A DNA stretch of 64,000 nucleotides, from the NCBI GenBank assembly GCA_964006375.1, contig OZ023270.1:75147891-75211890 (forward strand). The letters run 5' to 3'. The stretch comes from Tillus elongatus (taxonomy: Eukaryota > Arthropoda > Insecta > Coleoptera > Cleridae). Shown here in pieces: positions 11,434 through 56,509 of the stretch. The notes below the pieces were generated by a model. It saw only the letters and a program-made list of their open reading frames with translations. It had not been told where the DNA came from and ran no database searches. Each line of letters opens with the position of its first letter. Position 1 is the stretch's first letter. Position numbers and translations under genes: made by a program.

Positions 11434-11625
11434 AAAAGATCTACCTGGACATATACATCGAGGATACACCATCGTATCAGAAAGCGGTGAAATAACGAGA
11501 TCATCAGAACAATTTTCTGGAGGAAAAGAAAAACTGTACTTTGGGTTCGGTGGTATTGACAATTCTTGGCATGCCATGGGACATGATCTTTTGAAAATTC
11601 CAATTTTCGCCGACTCTATACAAAA
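11434..11625 (+). CDS. FASN: FAS exon 4: linker and start of MAT region
   Basis: The acceptor is aacttttag and the donor gtaagt, after a short 71-bp intron. The peptide includes LPGHIHRGYTIVSE, which corresponds to the linker around the usual 'HPYRGY' segment. Near its end it has YFGFGGIDNSWHAMG, matching the start of the acyltransferase domain (commonly 'FSGMGSQWxxMG'). The usual GMGSQW is altered to GGIDNSW, the first sign of divergence in MAT. Ends in phase 2. Confidence 0.93.
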
Positions 11626-11859: not shown

Positions 11860-12680
11860 GTTTTCGGTGAAAAATTCCATTGACTTCATTAATAGAATCA
11901 AAGATATTAAGTTAAAACCAAATGAAGTACTGATCTCTGTTGATGTCAAGCCGTTGTTCCCCAGCTACCTATCCATATAGCTCTTCAGTATTTTCGGGAC
12001 ATGCTTCATGATAACCAGCTATCGGACATGCAGGTGGAGGAATATATTAACTTAACTTCACTATGCATGTTTGAGAGTTTCTTTCGAGTCGGTGGGAAGC
12101 TTTATCGGAAGACGGAGGGAAGCACAATGTTCCTATTGTCTCCCTTCATTGCCGAACTCTTGATAAGCCGATTTGTGAGTGACTTTGCTGGAGTGGTGGA
12201 GTATTCACCGAGGGTATGGTTGAGATATATCGACGATATTTTTGCCATATTTGCCTCAGTGAAGATGATATCAATAGGTTTGTTAGTAAGTTGAAGAGTA
12301 CAGTAAGTCCTTTTAATCAAATTTACTTACGAAATGGAGAACAACGACCACTTACCTTTCCGCGATACTCTTGTCATCAAAAATATAGATAGTCTCCAGA
12401 CATTGTGTATAGATAATAGTACAGGCAATAGAGAATTGGTTTCTGCATTAAACTACACGAGTTATTTTTTTTGATAGATAGGTTCTGAATGACGTACTGA
12501 ATGTAAAAACACAAAATCCTTACAAAATGGGAGGGCGGAAGTGCCGCCATTTTGAGAAAAACCGTTTCGGCCTATATCTCCGTAACCGTGCACTTTAGGT
12601 CAAAAATGTTAATGACCTTTATTGTAGATAATTGCATTTCTCATCTTTTTTGTAAAATAATTTTTTTGTATCACCCACCG

Positions 12681-40460: not shown

Positions 40461-40735
40461 TGAGAGAGGCTACCTGTTTGTGAGCGTCGAAACTCCAGTC
40501 AGATGGCACAACACCTAAACAGCAGGCGAAAAAAAGTCCCTAAAGGATCCTGTCAAACAAACTTTTACTTTCCAAAATATAGGCTCCTGCTGGGAGCTGG
40601 ATTTGATGGTGACATTTAACCAATTAGATGTGGCTACAATAGAGCCAAGGACGCGGTGGAGGGACTAAAATAGTCCACTCACATTAAATCTAAGAATCAA
40701 TAGAGATATCACTTTCAATGAGACATTTGTTTTAG

Positions 40736-40926
40736 GCCGTAATTTGTTCCCTGCATCTGGTTACCTGGGTCTGGTATGGGAAACATTTGCTCTTATGACG
40801 GATATCATGACATCTGACATGCATGTGTCCTTTGAAAATGTAAAGTTCCACAGAGCGACTTACGTGGGCAAAAGTGGAAGACTCGAGTTTACTGTGATGA
40901 TTCAAAGAGGAAGCGGCAAGTTTGAG
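40736..40926 (+). CDS. FASN: FAS exon 9: dehydratase hot-dog fold
   Basis: The acceptor is tgttttag and the donor gtaagt. Two bases complete the Gly of the DH signature. The peptide GRNLFPASGYLGLVWETFAL is strongly conserved in animal FAS. It is followed by a beta-rich stretch with VSFENVKFHRATYV and RLEFTVMIQRGSGKFE, typical of the first hot-dog repeat. Intron 8 before it is about 8.6 kb and holds a SINE, a perfect inverted repeat and a hAT element. Confidence 0.96.
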
Positions 40927-41031
40927 GTAAGTTCTTTTACTTTTACAAAAATTTAATGTGGTTCACCTTCACATTTATTTTTTATCTAATATACAAGAGC
41001 AGTTACCATCACAAAGCCTGATTATGGAATA

Positions 41032-41374
41032 ACAGTTGTGTATAAACCGTTTAGTAGATTTTAGCCGTATGTATTAAAATTATATTCAACTATACAGAGT
41101 GTTCAATGTTTCCAGGTAAAACAAACATATTTTTTTAATAGAACACTCCATATATTATTCCATACCAACATACAATACTATTACTATTGCTATTATTATT
41201 CAGCTCATTTTTGTACTCCTGATAACAAATTCTATTATGCTGTACAAATTACATCAAAAGTTACGAAGATCTCTGCAGCAAAATATCAATCAAATAAACA
41301 ATTAATATTTCAAAAGAAACAAAAAAAAAAGAAGAAAAAAGGGGTAAAAAGGAAGAAAAGAAGAAAAAAAATTC

Positions 41375-41393
<19 letters not shown>
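41032..41393. repeat. Donor copy of a 362-bp segment also found at 45930-46289
   Basis: It covers intron 9 sequence from 'acagttgtgtataaacc' to the purine-rich (aaag/aagaa) run and the first 19 bases of the neighbouring hairpin-family terminus. The second copy differs only in A-run lengths as far as I can see. This copy is continuous with the rest of the repeat element, so it looks like the source. Confidence 0.85.
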
Positions 41394-43824: not shown

Positions 43825-44598
43825 GTAAGTATAGTTTCGAACGTTATATTGGACAACCTGTCTGTTATAAATCAATATAATCAATAAGATAAAAAATCTT
43901 ACTACACCCACACTAATAGGTATACTTTCGAAAATTCAGTTCACTACAAAATAGTTTCTAAGCTTAAGTAAAATCCAAGAGGACCTAATTATGTTTTTAG
44001 GCGCATTTGTAAATGTTGCGTACGTGTAGTAGAATATTCAAAGTAGTAAAAAAGTCTGTGGCCAATGGAATGTAAATTCCGAAGTAATATTTACCGATAC
44101 CACCACCAATTCACTACAATCCATTTTTATAAGATGACTCATCTTGTGATAAAGGAAACTATAATGCCGAAATGGCCGCTAAGTTATTGAAAGTTATTGT
44201 GGTGAAATCGGTTTTTCAAACTGCTCTCATCAGTGCTCATCGCAGACTCAAAACATTACTGCGCGTTTTATTAATATGATAATAAACGACATCTTAAATT
44301 GGATTATAAAGCGTATAGTGATTAATTTAATAATTTTAAACTTAGCTGCTGAAGATGAAAAATAATTAAGCGTAGGCTCTTACCATTAAGTATGCCCTTG
44401 GGTTCATGCAATACCTTCAAGTATCTACCACATGCTTCGCCTGTCAGTTGTTTGCTGTGAATAATGGGAACAAACAAGAGAACACAAGTATATTCCAGCC
44501 ACTACGTGAACACCTGTAAAAAAATGTTCCATTATTAAGTGGTCTTGGCAGGGTTAAAAAGATCGCCAAAACAATTATAGTAAATTTAACACCAGGTG

Positions 44599-45106
44599 TG
44601 TTGTTGCGAGAATGCATCTAGTCTTACATACTTTGTCCCTATATTGGGGTAGAAATGGGCCAGGGCTAACAATTTTTTAAATTGTTAGTTAGTTGTATAC
44701 TGTCTCTATTTTTAACACTCTGTGTTATTTGGAGCGGGCGTGACAACATAGTACTTAGTTCCGAACTAGGTGGCGACACGTTCACCACTCACTTAGTGTT
44801 TTAAGACTGGCTATACGATAGCCGTGTTATTTTTGGTGCATTTTTGCTACAATTAGTATGCCGTACTGAAGAGCTCTAATGAGAGCGAAACCGGTCTACG
44901 GTTCTAATTGTTGCGAGAATGCATCTAGTCTTACATACTTTGTCCCTATATTGGGGTAGAAATGGGCCAGGGCTAACAATTTTTTAAATTGTTAGTTAGT
45001 TGTATACTGTCTCTATTTTTAACACTGTGTGTTATTTGGAGCGGGCGTGACAACATAGTACTTGGTTCCGAACTAGGTGGCGACACGTTCACCACTCACT
45101 TAGTGT
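44599..45106 (+). mobile_element. Retrozyme-like insertion: 307-bp unit plus 199-bp partial unit, 8-bp target duplication
   Basis: 44601-44799 and 44908-45106 are direct repeats of 199 bp with only a few mismatches; the unit period is 307 bp. The whole is flanked by 'accaggtg' at 44591-44598 and 45107-45114. No protein is encoded. A hammerhead ribozyme spans the junction between units, and the first unit starts about 10 bases after where that ribozyme would cut. Family knowledge: retrozymes are small non-autonomous retroelements made of hammerhead-bearing tandem repeats that yield circular RNAs. An LTR-type TRIM is the alternative, but the ends lack TG...CA. Confidence 0.75.
44849..44911 (+). 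ncRNA. Type I hammerhead ribozyme with intact core
   Basis: Parts in order: outer stem I ACAATTA (44849-44855), inner stem I CCGTA (44861-44865), core CTGAAGA (44866-44872, fits CUGANGA), stem II GCTCT/AGAGC (44873-44877 and 44882-44886) with loop AATG, core GAAA (44887-44890), stem III ACCGGT (44890-44895), then C44896 as the cleavage base, inner stem I TACGG (44897-44901) and outer stem I TAATTGT (44905-44911). All pairs are Watson-Crick. Stem III is a self-complementary 3-bp helix with no loop, so efficient cleavage probably needs a dimer, as described for short-stem-III hammerheads. Confidence 0.85.
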
Positions 45107-45239
45107 ACCAGGTGAAGTAACAGCGACAACTTGAAAACACGCTGATAAAAAAAATACTAAAATTGATCCTGAAATGTTATAGATCTAAAAAGTGCCTAGT
45201 TGTGTGTAGAAAAGTAAATTATTCCAAAATAAACGTGGA

Positions 45240-45570: not shown

Positions 45571-46643
45571 TTTAGACAAAAACAAATATTCTTTGATTAG
45601 TAGGATATAATTACCGCCTTATATAAGCAACATCAAAATTATTTACAAATTCTGATTTGTCATGCCAAAAACATAAAGCTGCCAAATTTCAAGGAGATAC
45701 CATTAACATTAAAAAAAATTAAACAAAAATTCTAACTTCGAACACGCTGTGTCATAGTCATATTTGTATTTTTATACCATCAGTTTCGCAATTTCCCATT
45801 ATTTGTGAATCATCCTGTAATCTTAAGATGCAAAAGTTAATACCATTCAGCCATGAATTGTTCCGTAATGGTCCATGTATATAAGAACCGACCTATTTAA
45901 AGTTACTTAGCATCTGTTTACTGGCTACTACAGTTGTGTATAAACCGTTTAGTAGATTTTAGCCGTATGTATTAAAATTATATTCAACTATACAGAGTGT
46001 TCAATGTTTCCAGGTAAAACAAACATATTTTTTTAATAGAACACTCCATATATTATTCCATACCAACATACAATACTATTACTATTGCTATTATTATTCA
46101 GCTCATTTTTGTACTCCTGATAACAAATTCTATTATGCTGTACAAATTACATCAAAAGTTACGAAGATCTCTGCAGCAAAATATCAATCAAATAAACAAT
46201 TAATATTTCAAAAGAAACAAAAAAAAAGAAGAAAAAAGGGGTAAAAAGGAAGAAAAGAAGAAAAAAATTCGGGACGCAGCAAGTGCGTTTAGACAAAAAC
46301 AAATATTCTTTGATTAGTAGGATATAATTACCGCCTTATATAAGCAACATCAAAATTATTTACAAATTCTGATTTGTCATGCCAAAAACATAAAGCTGCC
46401 AAATTTCAAGGAGATACCATTAACATTAAAAAAAATTAAACAAAAATTCTAACTTCGAACACGCTGTGTCATAGTCATATTTGTATTTTTATACCATCAG
46501 TTTCGCAATTTCCCATTATTTGTGAATCATCCTGTAATCTTAAGATGCAAAAGTTAATACCATTCAGCCATGAATTGTTCCGTAATGGTCCATGTATATA
46601 AGAACCGACCTATTTAAAGTTACTTAGCATCTGTTTACTGGCT
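45571..46643. repeat. B-A-B duplication: 356-bp direct repeats flanking a copied 360-bp segment
   Basis: 45571-45926 and 46288-46643 are 356-bp direct repeats that appear identical. Between them, 45930-46289 is a copy of 41032-41393 from 4.9 kb upstream, cut off after the first bases of the hairpin-family terminus. The block ends 53 bp before FAS exon 11. It could be a templated insertion with a long target duplication, or an assembly or haplotype artefact. Confidence 0.85.
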
Positions 46644-46696
46644 CTTAATATATTCAAAATTATCTACATTTTTGTACATTAAAATATCGTTTATAG

Positions 46697-46951
46697 TGGC
46701 AAGTTCCGTGGCCTCGTAGAAAGTGACCTAGCTGCTGAGAAAGGTCTTGTCAAATGGGATGGTAACTGGATCACTTACATTGACAATTTGTTTCAAATGA
46801 AGATACTCCAGATAGACAGCAGGTTCCTGTATGTTCCTACAGGTATTGATAGACTAACAATTGATGGAAAGAAACATATTCAATATTCTCGTACGTTTGG
46901 AGAAGACCCAGCTCTTCCGGTATATGTATACCAAGACTGTAACATTATTAG
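46697..46951 (+). CDS. FASN: FAS exon 11: second dehydratase repeat with Asp/Gln
   Basis: The acceptor is tttatag and the donor gtaagt. The peptide opens GKFRGLVESDLAAEKGLVKW, and WITYIDNLFQ follows. This has the DxxxQ pattern of the second DH half-site, with Asp at 46782-46784 and Gln at 46794-46796. FLYVPTGIDRLTIDG matches the 'R.lyvPTgIe.l.ID' segment. With the His in exon 8, the DH active site appears complete. Immediately upstream (45571-46643) lies a local duplication that does not disturb the exon. Confidence 0.96.
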
Positions 46952-47134
46952 GTAAGTATGTAGAGAAAATAACTTTACAGGTTATTAGTAATGGTTCAGC
47001 AACAATTTTTAGTCATGAAAATATTTGTTCATACGTAAGATAGCGAAAACAGTTTGAAATTTTCATTTATGTTCAGTGTCGGCTCTTCCATGTTTAGTAA
47101 AGATTGTAAGCAAATGTCATCTACCCCTTTTAAC

Positions 47135-53453: not shown

Positions 53454-53459
<6 letters not shown>

Positions 53460-55378
53460 CATACTTGGTTGTCGGGTTGAACCGCGTCCGGAATTTATGA
53501 AAACTCGACGTTTCGGCTCCTGTTTTGGAGCCATTTTCAAGAGGTAAAGGATGTATGTAACGACACTCTAAGGCATCAACCTGCCCACTCCTTAGAGTGG
53601 TGGACAAAGGTGTGTAAAGAAAATATGTAAGGACACTCTAAGGCCTCAATCTGCCTACTCCTTAGAGTGGTGGACAAAGGTGGGTAAATGAAATATGTAA
53701 GGACACTCTAAGGCGCAATTTGCCTACTCCTTAGAATGGTGGACAAAGGTGGGTAAAGGAAATATGTAAGGACACTCTAAGGCCTCAATCTGCCTACTCC
53801 TTAGAGCGGTGGACAAATGTGGGTTGGGTTGTTGTAGCTCTAGTACGAGGCCTCAATCTGCCTACTCCCACAAATCTCGCCGGAGATCGTCTGTGAGGTC
53901 TCAGTGTGTTTAACCCTAGACCTCAGAGAGATCTGGCAGTTCGTTGCAAGTCTTGTCTTATATATGTCGTTCCGTCTACCTGCTTCGTTATCAGTGAAAG
54001 TAGTGGGGTTACCGTCAATTAAGTGGGGTGCTGTGGTCACGGTACTTAAAGGATGAGGAGGATTAAGAGGGTCACCGGCATTTGTTGAGGCAGATAATGG
54101 GGCAATACATTTGTCTGTGGAATTTATTTTCTTTTTGTGTGTTTGTAAAGAAGATATAATAGGTTTCCAAGTAGACGGAAGGCGAAGACCATCATCCCTC
54201 TTATTTAAACAATCGGGACGTTTTTGAATCTCGATTGCTTCGCGGATAATTCTCGTTTTAAAGTTGTAAACCGGTGCTATTGTTTTGGCATTATCAAAGT
54301 CTATTTTGTGCCCTGTATGAATATGATGCATGGCCAGCGCCGATGAGGGGTCGGATTTTCTAACTGCGAGGGTGTGTTCATATATTCTATTATGAATGCG
54401 TCTATTTGTTTGTCCTACATAAGTTCGGGAACAGTCGGCACAAGGAATTTCGTAAACTCCGTGGGATTCGTTTGGAATCGTATCCTTGGGAGTTTTAATC
54501 AGATTTGACAGTTCTTGCTCTGTTGTGAATACGGTTTTGATACTATGGGTTCTAAAAATTCTGCTGATTTTGTCAGTGACACCTTTAATGTATGGTGAAA
54601 ACGCTGTGTGTTGTTGTGTGGACTGTGTTTGTTCTTGTTGTGGTGTAGTGGTTTGTTGCTGTGCGTTTCTAATGTTTCGTAGTATGTGATTGTTGTATCC
54701 GTTTTCTAGCAATGTCTGTCTTAAAAAGTTTAATTCTGTCTGTTTGTTGTTGTTGTCCGTTAGTCTAAGTGATCGTGTTACTAGTGTTTGAACCACGGAA
54801 TTTAGTTGCGATGGGTGATGGTGAGATTGGGCGTTAAGATAATGATTAGTGTGGGTTGGTTTTATTGCCACATTATCTGCCTCAACAAATGCCGATGACC
54901 TTCTTAGTCCTCCTCATCCTCTAAGTACCGTGACCACAGCCCCTCACTTAGTTGACGGTGACCCCACTATTTTCACTGATAACGAAGCAGGTAGACGGAA
55001 CGACATATATGACAAGACTTGCAACGAACTGCCAGATCTCTCTGAGGCATAGGGTTGAACACATTGAGACCTCACAGACGATCTCCGGCGAGATTTGGGG
55101 AGTAGGCAGATTGAGGCCCCGTAATCGAGCTTCAACAACCTAACCCACCTTTGTCCACCGCTCTAAGGAGTAGGCAGATTAAGGCCTTAGAGTGTCCTTA
55201 CAAATGTCATTTACCCACCTTTGTCCACCACTCTAAGGAGTAGGTAGATTGAGGCCTTGGAGTATCCTTACATACTTCCTTTACCGCTTGAAAATTGCTC
55301 CAAAACATAAGCCAAAACGTCGAGTTTTCATAAATTCTGGACGCAGTTCAACCCGAGAACCAAGTATGTCTCACATTA
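53454..55378 (-). mobile_element. Penelope-like element with inverted flanks and 70-bp tandem repeats
   Basis: The ends are inverted copies: 'gagacatacttgg' at 53456 and 'ccaagtatgtctc' near 55372, with homology running about 500 bp inward on each side. The left flank holds four ~70-bp tandem units starting at 53561, 53631, 53701 and 53770; the right flank holds about two. Each unit contains CACTCTAAGG and its inverse CCTTAGAGTG. A hammerhead-like segment ('ggctcc...ggagccgaaacgtcg', minus strand, 53510-53545) lies in the left flank and a weaker one in the right; both have damaged cores. Confidence 0.8.
53840..54871 (-). CDS. Penelope-like protein C-terminus with GIY-YIG endonuclease
   Basis: A 343-codon minus-strand frame. 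From about residue 140: GVYEIPCADCSRTYVGQTNR (GIY...YVG motif, here GVY and YVG), then RIHNRIYEH, HHIHTGHKIDFDNAK and IREAIEIQKRPDCLN, giving the conserved Arg, His and Glu of GIY-YIG nucleases. The CADC-like pair is typical for Penelope endonucleases. The N-terminal 100 residues are Gln/Thr-rich and probably the tail of the RT region; the RT palm itself is missing. The last ~80 residues run into the flanking repeat. The active-site residues look intact, but the element is truncated. Confidence 0.8.
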   Translation of the reverse strand: MAIKPTHTNHYLNAQSHHHPSQLNSVVQTLVTRSLRLTDNNNKQTELNFLRQTLLENGYNNHILRNIRNAQQQTTTPQQEQTQSTQQHTAFSPYIKGVTDKISRIFRTHSIKTVFTTEQELSNLIKTPKDTIPNESHGVYEIPCADCSRTYVGQTNRRIHNRIYEHTLAVRKSDPSSALAMHHIHTGHKIDFDNAKTIAPVYNFKTRIIREAIEIQKRPDCLNKRDDGLRLPSTWKPIISSLQTHKKKINSTDKCIAPLSASTNAGDPLNPPHPLSTVTTAPHLIDGNPTTFTDNEAGRRNDIYKTRLATNCQISLRSRVKHTETSQTISGEICGSRQIEASY

Positions 55379-55399
55379 AAGACCGCGGGAATCTTTCTG

Positions 55400-56509
<1,110 letters not shown>

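Follow-up and report, generated by a model that had tools for sequence, protein, structure and literature searches.

What kind of element is the 307-nt noncoding repeat that stands 1.65 times at 44601-45106, in sense within an intron of a FAS gene of Tillus elongatus, and what machinery moves it? The window, by which we mean the whole 64,000-nt stretch of DNA analysed here, holds this insertion with the following parts, unit positions being numbered from u1 = 44897.

44591..44598, + strand: left target site duplication, ACCAGGTG, an exact 8-mer repeated at 45107-45114
44601..44907, + strand: copy 1 of the retrozyme unit, u12 to u307 followed by u1 to u11
44626..44627 in copy 1 and 44933-44934 in copy 2, + strand: start site A (u37/u38), from a cluster of arm 3' ends
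44849..44911, + strand: type I hammerhead ribozyme, from a motif check, Rfam covariance models, shuffles and genome copies
44866..44872, + strand: catalytic core CTGAAGA, read from the sequence
44873..44886, + strand: stem-loop II, 5 bp (GCTCT/AGAGC at 44873-44877/44882-44886) with an AATG loop
44890..44895, + strand: stem III, the loop-less palindrome ACCGGT, putative dimer contact, from the sequence and the predicted fold
44896..44897, + strand: predicted cleavage site, between C and T, by the hammerhead rule (position checked)
44908..45106, + strand: partial copy 2 of the unit, u12 to u210, without ribozyme
45102..45106 (44795-44799 in copy 1), + strand: start site B (u206-u210), from a cluster of ends; here the 3' end of the insertion
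45107..45114, + strand: right target site duplication, ACCAGGTG, exact 8-mer

Two extra bases, TG at 44599-44600, lie between the left target duplication and the unit, and the partial copy is identical to copy 1 at 197 of 199 positions. In the folding prediction, site B borders an AC-rich hairpin loop on its 3' side. The unit has 307 bp and 40.4% GC, and its longest stop-to-stop frame, in the tandem unit, is 44 codons. With neither reverse transcriptase (RT) nor GIY-YIG endonuclease encoded, the repeat is, judged by its coding capacity, not a Penelope-like element (PLE); it is an animal non-LTR retrozyme. The sections of PMC7229834 cited here describe such retrozymes with the same unit length, tandem units, low GC content, lack of protein and type I hammerhead, and with the same target duplications above 4 bp, thousands of copies and coexistence with PLEs. 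Here the noncoding unit lies within ~150-450 bp, its GC content is below 50% and its target duplications exceed 4 bp.

The earlier note had read an intact type I hammerhead at the junction of a retrozyme-like tandem repeat, and this reading stands: the units are of 307 bp, the motif is intact, and all the hammerhead bases that it listed, the 5-bp stem II and a two-helix stem I with internal loop are present. The open stem is stem I, as in type I. GAAA occupies 44887-44890, and the cut is expected 3' of C44896, a position (44896/44897) that we take from the hammerhead rule. A generic hammerhead descriptor finds a single site in the 64 kb window, at 44849-44911. Any site with a stem I of at least 4 bp appears in 4 of 400 dinucleotide shuffles, and none of the 400 has one when stem I must reach 6 bp. 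The 63-nt ribozyme folds with a z of -3.96, equalled in stability by 1 of 200 shuffles; its predicted minimum-energy monomer fold differs from the active one. The Rfam search proposed alongside the reading gave no match at the gathering score: the best covariance model, Hammerhead_HH9 (RF02275), scores 24.8 bits (E 0.00089) when 701 bases are searched and 27.8 bits (E 0.0088) over the window, yet its gathering score is 52.

The arms of stem III, ACC and GGT, adjoin directly, a point absent from the earlier note. Because there is no loop between them, a stem III hairpin is impossible. Going by the letters alone, stem III within one RNA would be limited to an A-U pair with a CCGG loop, and two RNAs, or two units, would be able to pair through the ACCGGU palindrome. 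With such a loop-less helix III, the ribozyme should cut well only as a dimer. The predicted energies are -19.1 kcal/mol for an active monomer without helix III and -22.3 kcal/mol for the best monomer fold, in which part of the core is paired; the double hammerhead is predicted at -47.1, the best dimer fold at -48.6 and two inactive monomers at -44.6 kcal/mol. The 307-nt circle is likewise predicted to fold with the same core bases paired as in the best monomer. A single ribozyme copy is thus predicted to be poorly active, and the dimer action that the earlier note mentioned for such hammerheads appears probable here from the loop-less stem III and the predicted energies.

Cleavage as a dimer was reportedly described for PLE hammerheads by Lunse in 2017. 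Another insect satellite-like hammerhead repeat, pDo500 of Dolichopoda, has a unit of presumably ~500 bp, going by its name. A dimeric form has likewise been proposed for pDo500, in which stem III forms inside a single sequence and stems I and II join two sequences (PMC2837043, in the part cited, where no insertion scars are described). Dimer cleavage by PLE hammerheads is treated in a section of the review PMC7761336. HHR_Amex1 of newt and axolotl has a very weak helix III, of one pair plus a palindromic tetraloop, and acts as a dimer, according to the section of PMC7229834 on it. Likened by description, ACCGGU can be read in the same way, as A-U plus CCGG; HHR_Amex1 differs in that here the whole ACCGGU is palindromic.

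A lack of related copies elsewhere in the genome would, by the earlier note, have counted against its reading. Exact copies of the 19-mer that spans the cleavage site number 15,943 there, against 0 for the reversed control, and a mid-unit pattern occurs at 11,550 places. Same-strand neighbours within 700 bp are spaced by 305-309 bp in 31 of 32 cases. Viral contigs gave no match to a related ribozyme pattern.

Three samples of loci were analysed. The ranked set comes from a DNA search of the species' own genome (1.72 Gb), in which the best 40 of 102 candidates were scored; all rows down to 369 bits were fetched, giving 38 loci, or 39 with the window. The positional sample takes the first 20 clusters from the first 100 listed places of the 19-mer, leaving out a long cluster, C1:2466667. 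Both sets are selected to contain the cleavage junction, which the 19-mer spans; the unit-middle pattern was chosen for this reason, and its sample comprises 21 clusters out of the first 22, of which 11 had been fetched earlier and 10 were added, C1:3345616 being left out for its length.

Among the 124 complete ribozyme copies of the 39 ranked loci, the motif is kept in 110, and the core, GAAA, ACCGGT and C are all identical in 101. All five pairs of stem II are kept in 114 copies, and ACCGGT is exact in 112. Measured with majority bases over the 39 loci, window included, divergence from the window unit amounts to 19/2441 sites (0.8%) in the ribozyme region, 344/9374 sites (3.7%) outside it and 1/464 sites in the invariant core. 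Divergence is low, at 0.2-1.0%, also in u16-30, u61-75, u91-105 and u196-210, the last of which adjoins site B. As a single oddity, one ribozyme copy (L039:983-1051) is 7 nt shorter at its cleavage site, the gap falling between two GGT repeats.

Most sampled insertions consist of two head-to-head arms with their RNA 3' ends outward. Opposed arms were found at 31/39 ranked loci, 13/20 loci of the positional, junction-pattern sample and 5/10 further loci; eight of the 39 ranked loci have a single orientation, two of them (L013 and L022) extending past the fetched stretch. The same asymmetry appears between neighbours within 700 bp: in the first 100 places of each pattern, the ribozyme 19-mer gives 12 -+ and 0 +- pairs, and the unit-middle pattern 9 -+ and 0 +-. 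The longest head-to-head case seen, C1:7512442-7521260, has 17 - units followed by 12 + units, at an exact spacing of 307 nt.

The inner ends of the arms are scattered; the outer ends are fixed, mostly with one of each kind per insertion. In the ranked set, 32 of the 66 arm RNA 3' ends lie at u30-50 (site A), 25 at u200-221 (site B) and 9 elsewhere. Over the three sets, 42 loci are complete with two arms: 33 are AB, with one end at u~38 and the other at u~209, 1 is BB, none is AA and 8 have an unusual end. By set, these are 17 AB, 1 BB and 6 with an unusual end among 24 ranked loci; 12 AB and 1 other among 13 positional loci; and 4 AB out of 5 further loci, the fifth (L127) having both ends near B (u222 and u206). 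The remaining 7 positional loci show other layouts in the alignment used, although in at least one of them, L081, inspection by eye suggests a second arm that is short and diverged. The unit-middle set of 21 holds 10 AB loci, L082 with two unusual ends, L127 and 9 other layouts. When the first 30 loci whose two ends both fall in range are counted, 29 are AB, where half would be expected (P 3e-8, the ends being treated as independent). As the ranges of A and B were set after viewing the ranked set, the later samples are the test. The dual-start reading is in keeping with the unit-middle sample and with the long arrays of 307-nt units.

Target duplications of at least 10 nt were found at 27 of 61 loci overall, with lengths of 10-15 nt. 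They occur at 16/31 ranked loci versus 2/930 mismatched pairs, at 8/20 positional loci versus 1/380 in the control, and at 3/10 further loci, which have no control. Where found, they enclose the whole two-arm structure, and in the flanks examined the ends abut the target duplication with no poly-A tail. The window copy departs from this layout in being single-armed with an 8-bp duplication.

A PLE protein has been found to nick and extend both strands; synthesis begins internally, in an AC-rich stem loop, and the tail corresponds to the distance between its two start sites (PMC11167929). The retrozyme likewise has two start sites, one of them at a predicted AC-rich hairpin. Mobilisation of both by the same kind of enzyme is the simplest account. 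EN+ PLEs, such as PAc of Anolis (PMC11167929) and Pen of Adineta vaga (PMC3846280), share further features in the sections cited: head-to-head inverted ends, tandem copies, an optional tail of ~30 nt, a ribozyme upstream of the start sites, and two internal RT start sites with both strands extended, as proposed here. The retrozyme is unlike them in having no protein and in placing its sites ~170 nt apart on a 307-nt unit, versus ~30 nt. Target duplications of rotifer PLEs measure 8-10 bp or are absent, according to the part of PMC3846280 cited. PLEs have been called a "strong candidate" for mobilising animal retrozymes (Discussion of PMC7229834), and retrozymes "may rely on PLEs" (PMC8969392, in the passage cited).

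We propose that retrozyme RNA is copied by a PLE-type enzyme that uses both ends of a broken DNA target as primers. Multi-unit source loci would be transcribed; neighbouring ribozymes would pair via ACCGGU and cut the RNA into 307-nt units, which a host ligase would close, as in published retrozymes. The single ribozyme of the monomer circle is predicted to be off, so that the circle would last. A PLE-type RT/GIY-YIG endonuclease would then make a staggered break of ~11-14 bp, and each 3' DNA end would prime inside the retrozyme RNA, one at A (u~38) and the other at B (u~209). Both cDNA copies would run round the RNA, often for several laps, stopping at varied points, and would be joined at microhomologies, so that target duplications enclose a head-to-head pair of arms. 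Taken as a whole, this account is in our judgement quite probable. That animal retrozymes move by two-ended rolling-circle target-primed reverse transcription, with a PLE enzyme, a stagger of ~12 bp and a dimer-only ribozyme that spares the circle, seems to us evenly poised between right and wrong; if true, it would settle which machinery moves animal retrozymes.

The template is probably a circular RNA. In the ranked and positional sets, both junction-selected, 63 of 110 arms are longer than one unit and 11 run for more than three laps, the longest arm among the fetched loci reaching 7.6 laps. In the unit-middle set, 27/36 arms cross the cleavage junction and 19/21 loci hold a crossing arm, the exceptions being L126 and L134. 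A cleaved linear monomer is therefore not the template of the crossing and multi-lap arms. It may be that of a minority: two single arms end near the junction, at u5 (L134) and u305 (L131), as a cleaved template would leave them, which is no more than a hint of cleavage.

Long multimeric transcripts, in place of circles, would also yield multi-lap arms, so laps do not prove a circle; they would leave the dual-start mechanism unchanged, and we regard them as a possible template with a minority share of the probability. Multi-unit loci exist and could be transcribed, and the PLE of PMC11167929 needed no ribozyme cleavage in vitro, where it used unprocessed RNA. Private variants shared by some but not all laps (43 at the 14 older loci) could also come from a multimer, or from later block duplication. 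Against multimers, the arms are separated by no more than 12 nt at 41/45 inner junctions, and flank of the source locus is hardly ever carried into insertions; among the four longer gaps, that of L087 is retrozyme, the 238 nt of L042 are not clearly so, and those of 15 and 22 nt are too short to tell. The ribozyme is moreover among the best conserved parts of the unit.

Three would-be tests of the template were set aside. Private variants fall in one lap, some laps or all laps in 108, 5 and 4 cases at 25 young loci, and in 239, 43 and 7 cases at the 14 older ones; these counts are compatible with circle and multimer alike. Variants in all laps of both arms were seen at L026, L027, L029 and L038, as expected if each insertion event drew on one RNA species; private variants are mostly confined to a single lap. 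Junction crossing as proof against a cleaved template is weakened by the selection of the first two samples for the junction: all their 59 loci hold a crossing arm, and beyond one per locus 36/51 arms cross. Arms below ~30 nt would be missed in these samples, the shortest seen being 31 nt. Finally, an apparent cleavage footprint, with arm 5' ends at u1-u12 in 16/73 cases of the ranked set, is a matter of ascertainment, as the query began at ~u10; in the positional sample a hand count gives 2/36, one of which is an alignment split (L087).

Could the arms have arisen without two primed ends, by self-priming or template switching on antisense RNA, or through satellite rearrangements at a later stage? 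In rotifer PLEs, pLTRs inverted head to head have been read as self-priming on an antisense template (PMC3846280, in the part cited), inner junctions of the retrozyme overlap in 33 of 45 cases, and some arrays (L041 and L043) show duplication of unit blocks after insertion. Self-priming, however, expects fixed palindromic inner junctions and free outer ends, the reverse of the scattered inner and fixed outer ends observed, and the target duplications, where found, bracket the whole two-arm structure; we judge this origin unlikely. In L041, variants recur every third lap, and in L043 every second lap, which suggests later duplication of unit blocks.

Twin priming is a known mechanism of L1 elements. 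It leaves inverted, truncated L1 insertions between target duplications (PMC2837659, in the part cited), and a LINE could in principle move the retrozyme with inverted arms as its occasional product. A LINE-like element with an RVT_1 match (E 9e-29) does lie in the window, and a 21-mer near its end has 15,383 copies in the genome. Among the first 100 places of this 21-mer, however, neighbours within 5 kb give 3 --, 3 ++, 3 +- and 1 -+, with no head-to-head excess. The opposed arms of the retrozyme are common, each of its two fixed outer sites mostly serves once per insertion, and in the flanks examined it ends without a poly-A tail; a LINE is thus a slightly poorer candidate still, and an improbable one.

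The scars of the retrozyme can be compared with those of two resident PLE families, in which the same rule of one tailed and one tail-less arm holds. The first, AT-PLE, has a copy in the window.

53456..55402, both orientations: AT-PLE copy with a head-to-head pair of arms, lying in an (AT)n tract, ends read from the sequence
53840..54913, - strand: open frame with part of a PLE GIY-YIG endonuclease (GIY-YIG PF01541)

The GIY-YIG match has E 4.8e-4 and 20.8 bits, just below the curated 22.6; the open frames of relatives in the genome span 936-941 aa, apart from a single one of 1020 aa. The window copy carries a tail on its right arm and none on its left. In 11 of 11 two-arm copies, namely the window copy and ten pairs picked as - then + matches within reach, one arm ends in ...TCTC and the other has a tail of ~31 nt. 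Without picking, orientation within 5 kb is 19 -+ and 0 +- for the first 100 of 5,681 places, the number of exact genome copies of a 20-mer near the 3' end. All 11 copies examined lie in (AT)n tracts, so target duplications are not measurable.

The hammerhead core of AT-PLE looks degenerate (CTTGAAAAT). By eye, a stretch GTCCACCACTC is common to old retrozyme copies and 70-bp AT-PLE repeats. A candidate homology between AT-PLE and the retrozyme after the ribozyme looked good by eye, but 346 of 3000 shuffles score as well. As there is no significant similarity between the two, the enzyme is suggested by the scars and not by shared RNA.

The second family, PLE-2, was reached via a degraded RT fragment at 11944-12294, a member of an older PLE RT family whose best 150 of 9,988 first-look candidates are 41-78% identical to it (self excluded). 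In a search for PLE-2 ends, with the best 40 of 43 candidates scored, 7 of 9 head-to-head pairs have one tailed and one tail-less arm; in the other two (C4:166290581 and C1:306198027) the right arm is partly aligned and reaches neither end. Target duplications of six pairs are 13, 12, 13, 12 and 11 nt, with one in (AT)n, whereas 30 mismatched control pairs reach at most 8 nt; the pair L107/L108 has at least 11 nt in common at its target. Six of the seven targets seen lie outside (AT)n. Within 5 kb, orientation is 17 -+ and 2 +- for the first 100 places of a hammerhead-like stretch with 6,166 exact 21-mers in the genome. At L107-L111 and L113, this hammerhead-like sequence reads CTGAAGAT-GTTGAC-TTG-GTCAAC-GAAAC and continues into the palindrome ACGATCGT of 8 nt, which may be a further dimer stem III lacking a loop. 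The retrozyme and PLE-2 were compared by short-word BLAST only, with a best E of 0.28 on the opposite strand.

The target duplications are of comparable length, 11-13 nt for PLE-2 and 10-15 nt for the retrozyme where found. This match, together with six of seven targets outside (AT)n, makes PLE-2 the better candidate of the two families; that PLE-2 itself moves the retrozyme is possible, falling somewhat short of an even chance in our estimate.

What is new here is the layout of the retrozyme copies, with arms set head to head and two start sites at fixed positions. Neither is described for the retrozymes of PMC7229834 in the sections cited, and the words "inverted" and "inversion" are absent from its main text. 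In the retrozyme and PLE literature covered, which includes few subscription papers and some papers in part, we found no description of inverted arms or dual start sites of retrozymes. Two fixed, complementary start sites, as in PLEs and unlike the LINE of the same genome, turn the candidacy of PLEs into a testable claim, and the scars are consistent with the model, seen in vitro with a single PLE, of internal starts and use of both strands. The template being short, its start sites can be mapped to a few nucleotides in thousands of copies.

The insertion in the window lies between two exon regions.

40669..40956, + strand: upstream FAS exon region, first part of the dehydratase domain, from profile and structure-chain matches
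46683..46955, + strand: downstream FAS exon region, second part of the dehydratase domain, from FAS structure chains

The upstream region matches Pfam PKS_DH_N at 21 bits (curated cut-off 27) and FAS chains with E down to 4.8e-10. The downstream region matches FAS chains of solved structures with E down to 3.7e-14, with no Pfam match. Further FAS domains (KAsynt_C_assoc, Acyl_transf_1 and FAS_pseudo-KR) are encoded on the same strand. With FAS exon matches on either side, the element lies in sense within a FAS intron; the location given in the earlier note is thus borne out by flanking matches to FAS dehydratase domains.

The note had also suggested that 307-nt circularisable RNAs could be released from the intron transcript. 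Two cuts are needed for a circle and a single ribozyme is present, as copy 2 ends before its own, so the intron copy yields none. Release "from the element itself", the other part of that suggestion, fails likewise at the window copy and is possible only from multi-unit copies elsewhere in the genome. That the intron copy is a regulatory device, in which an active ribozyme would cleave FAS pre-mRNA and set free a circular RNA, is very improbable: its core is intact and in sense within the intron, but its one ribozyme can free no unit, its stem III is loop-less with a competing predicted fold, and it is one of thousands of copies with ordinary insertion scars. The window insertion is one truncated, single-armed copy of an animal non-LTR retrozyme.

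Several larger repeats were noted on the way. Two loci on C7 ~60 kb apart, L015 and L024, have flanks that are reverse-complementary on one side, as after duplication or inversion between copies. At C1:6330677-6356816, retrozyme and PLE-2 motifs recur at the same spacing ~23.25 kb apart, which suggests a segmental duplication. In the FAS intron itself, a 356-bp stretch occurs twice at 100% identity (window 45571-45926 and 46288-46643), and the sequence between these two copies, 45930-46289, is a 99.4% copy of 41032-41393; the repeats at 41032-41393 and 45571-46643 reflect either a recent duplication or an assembly artefact.
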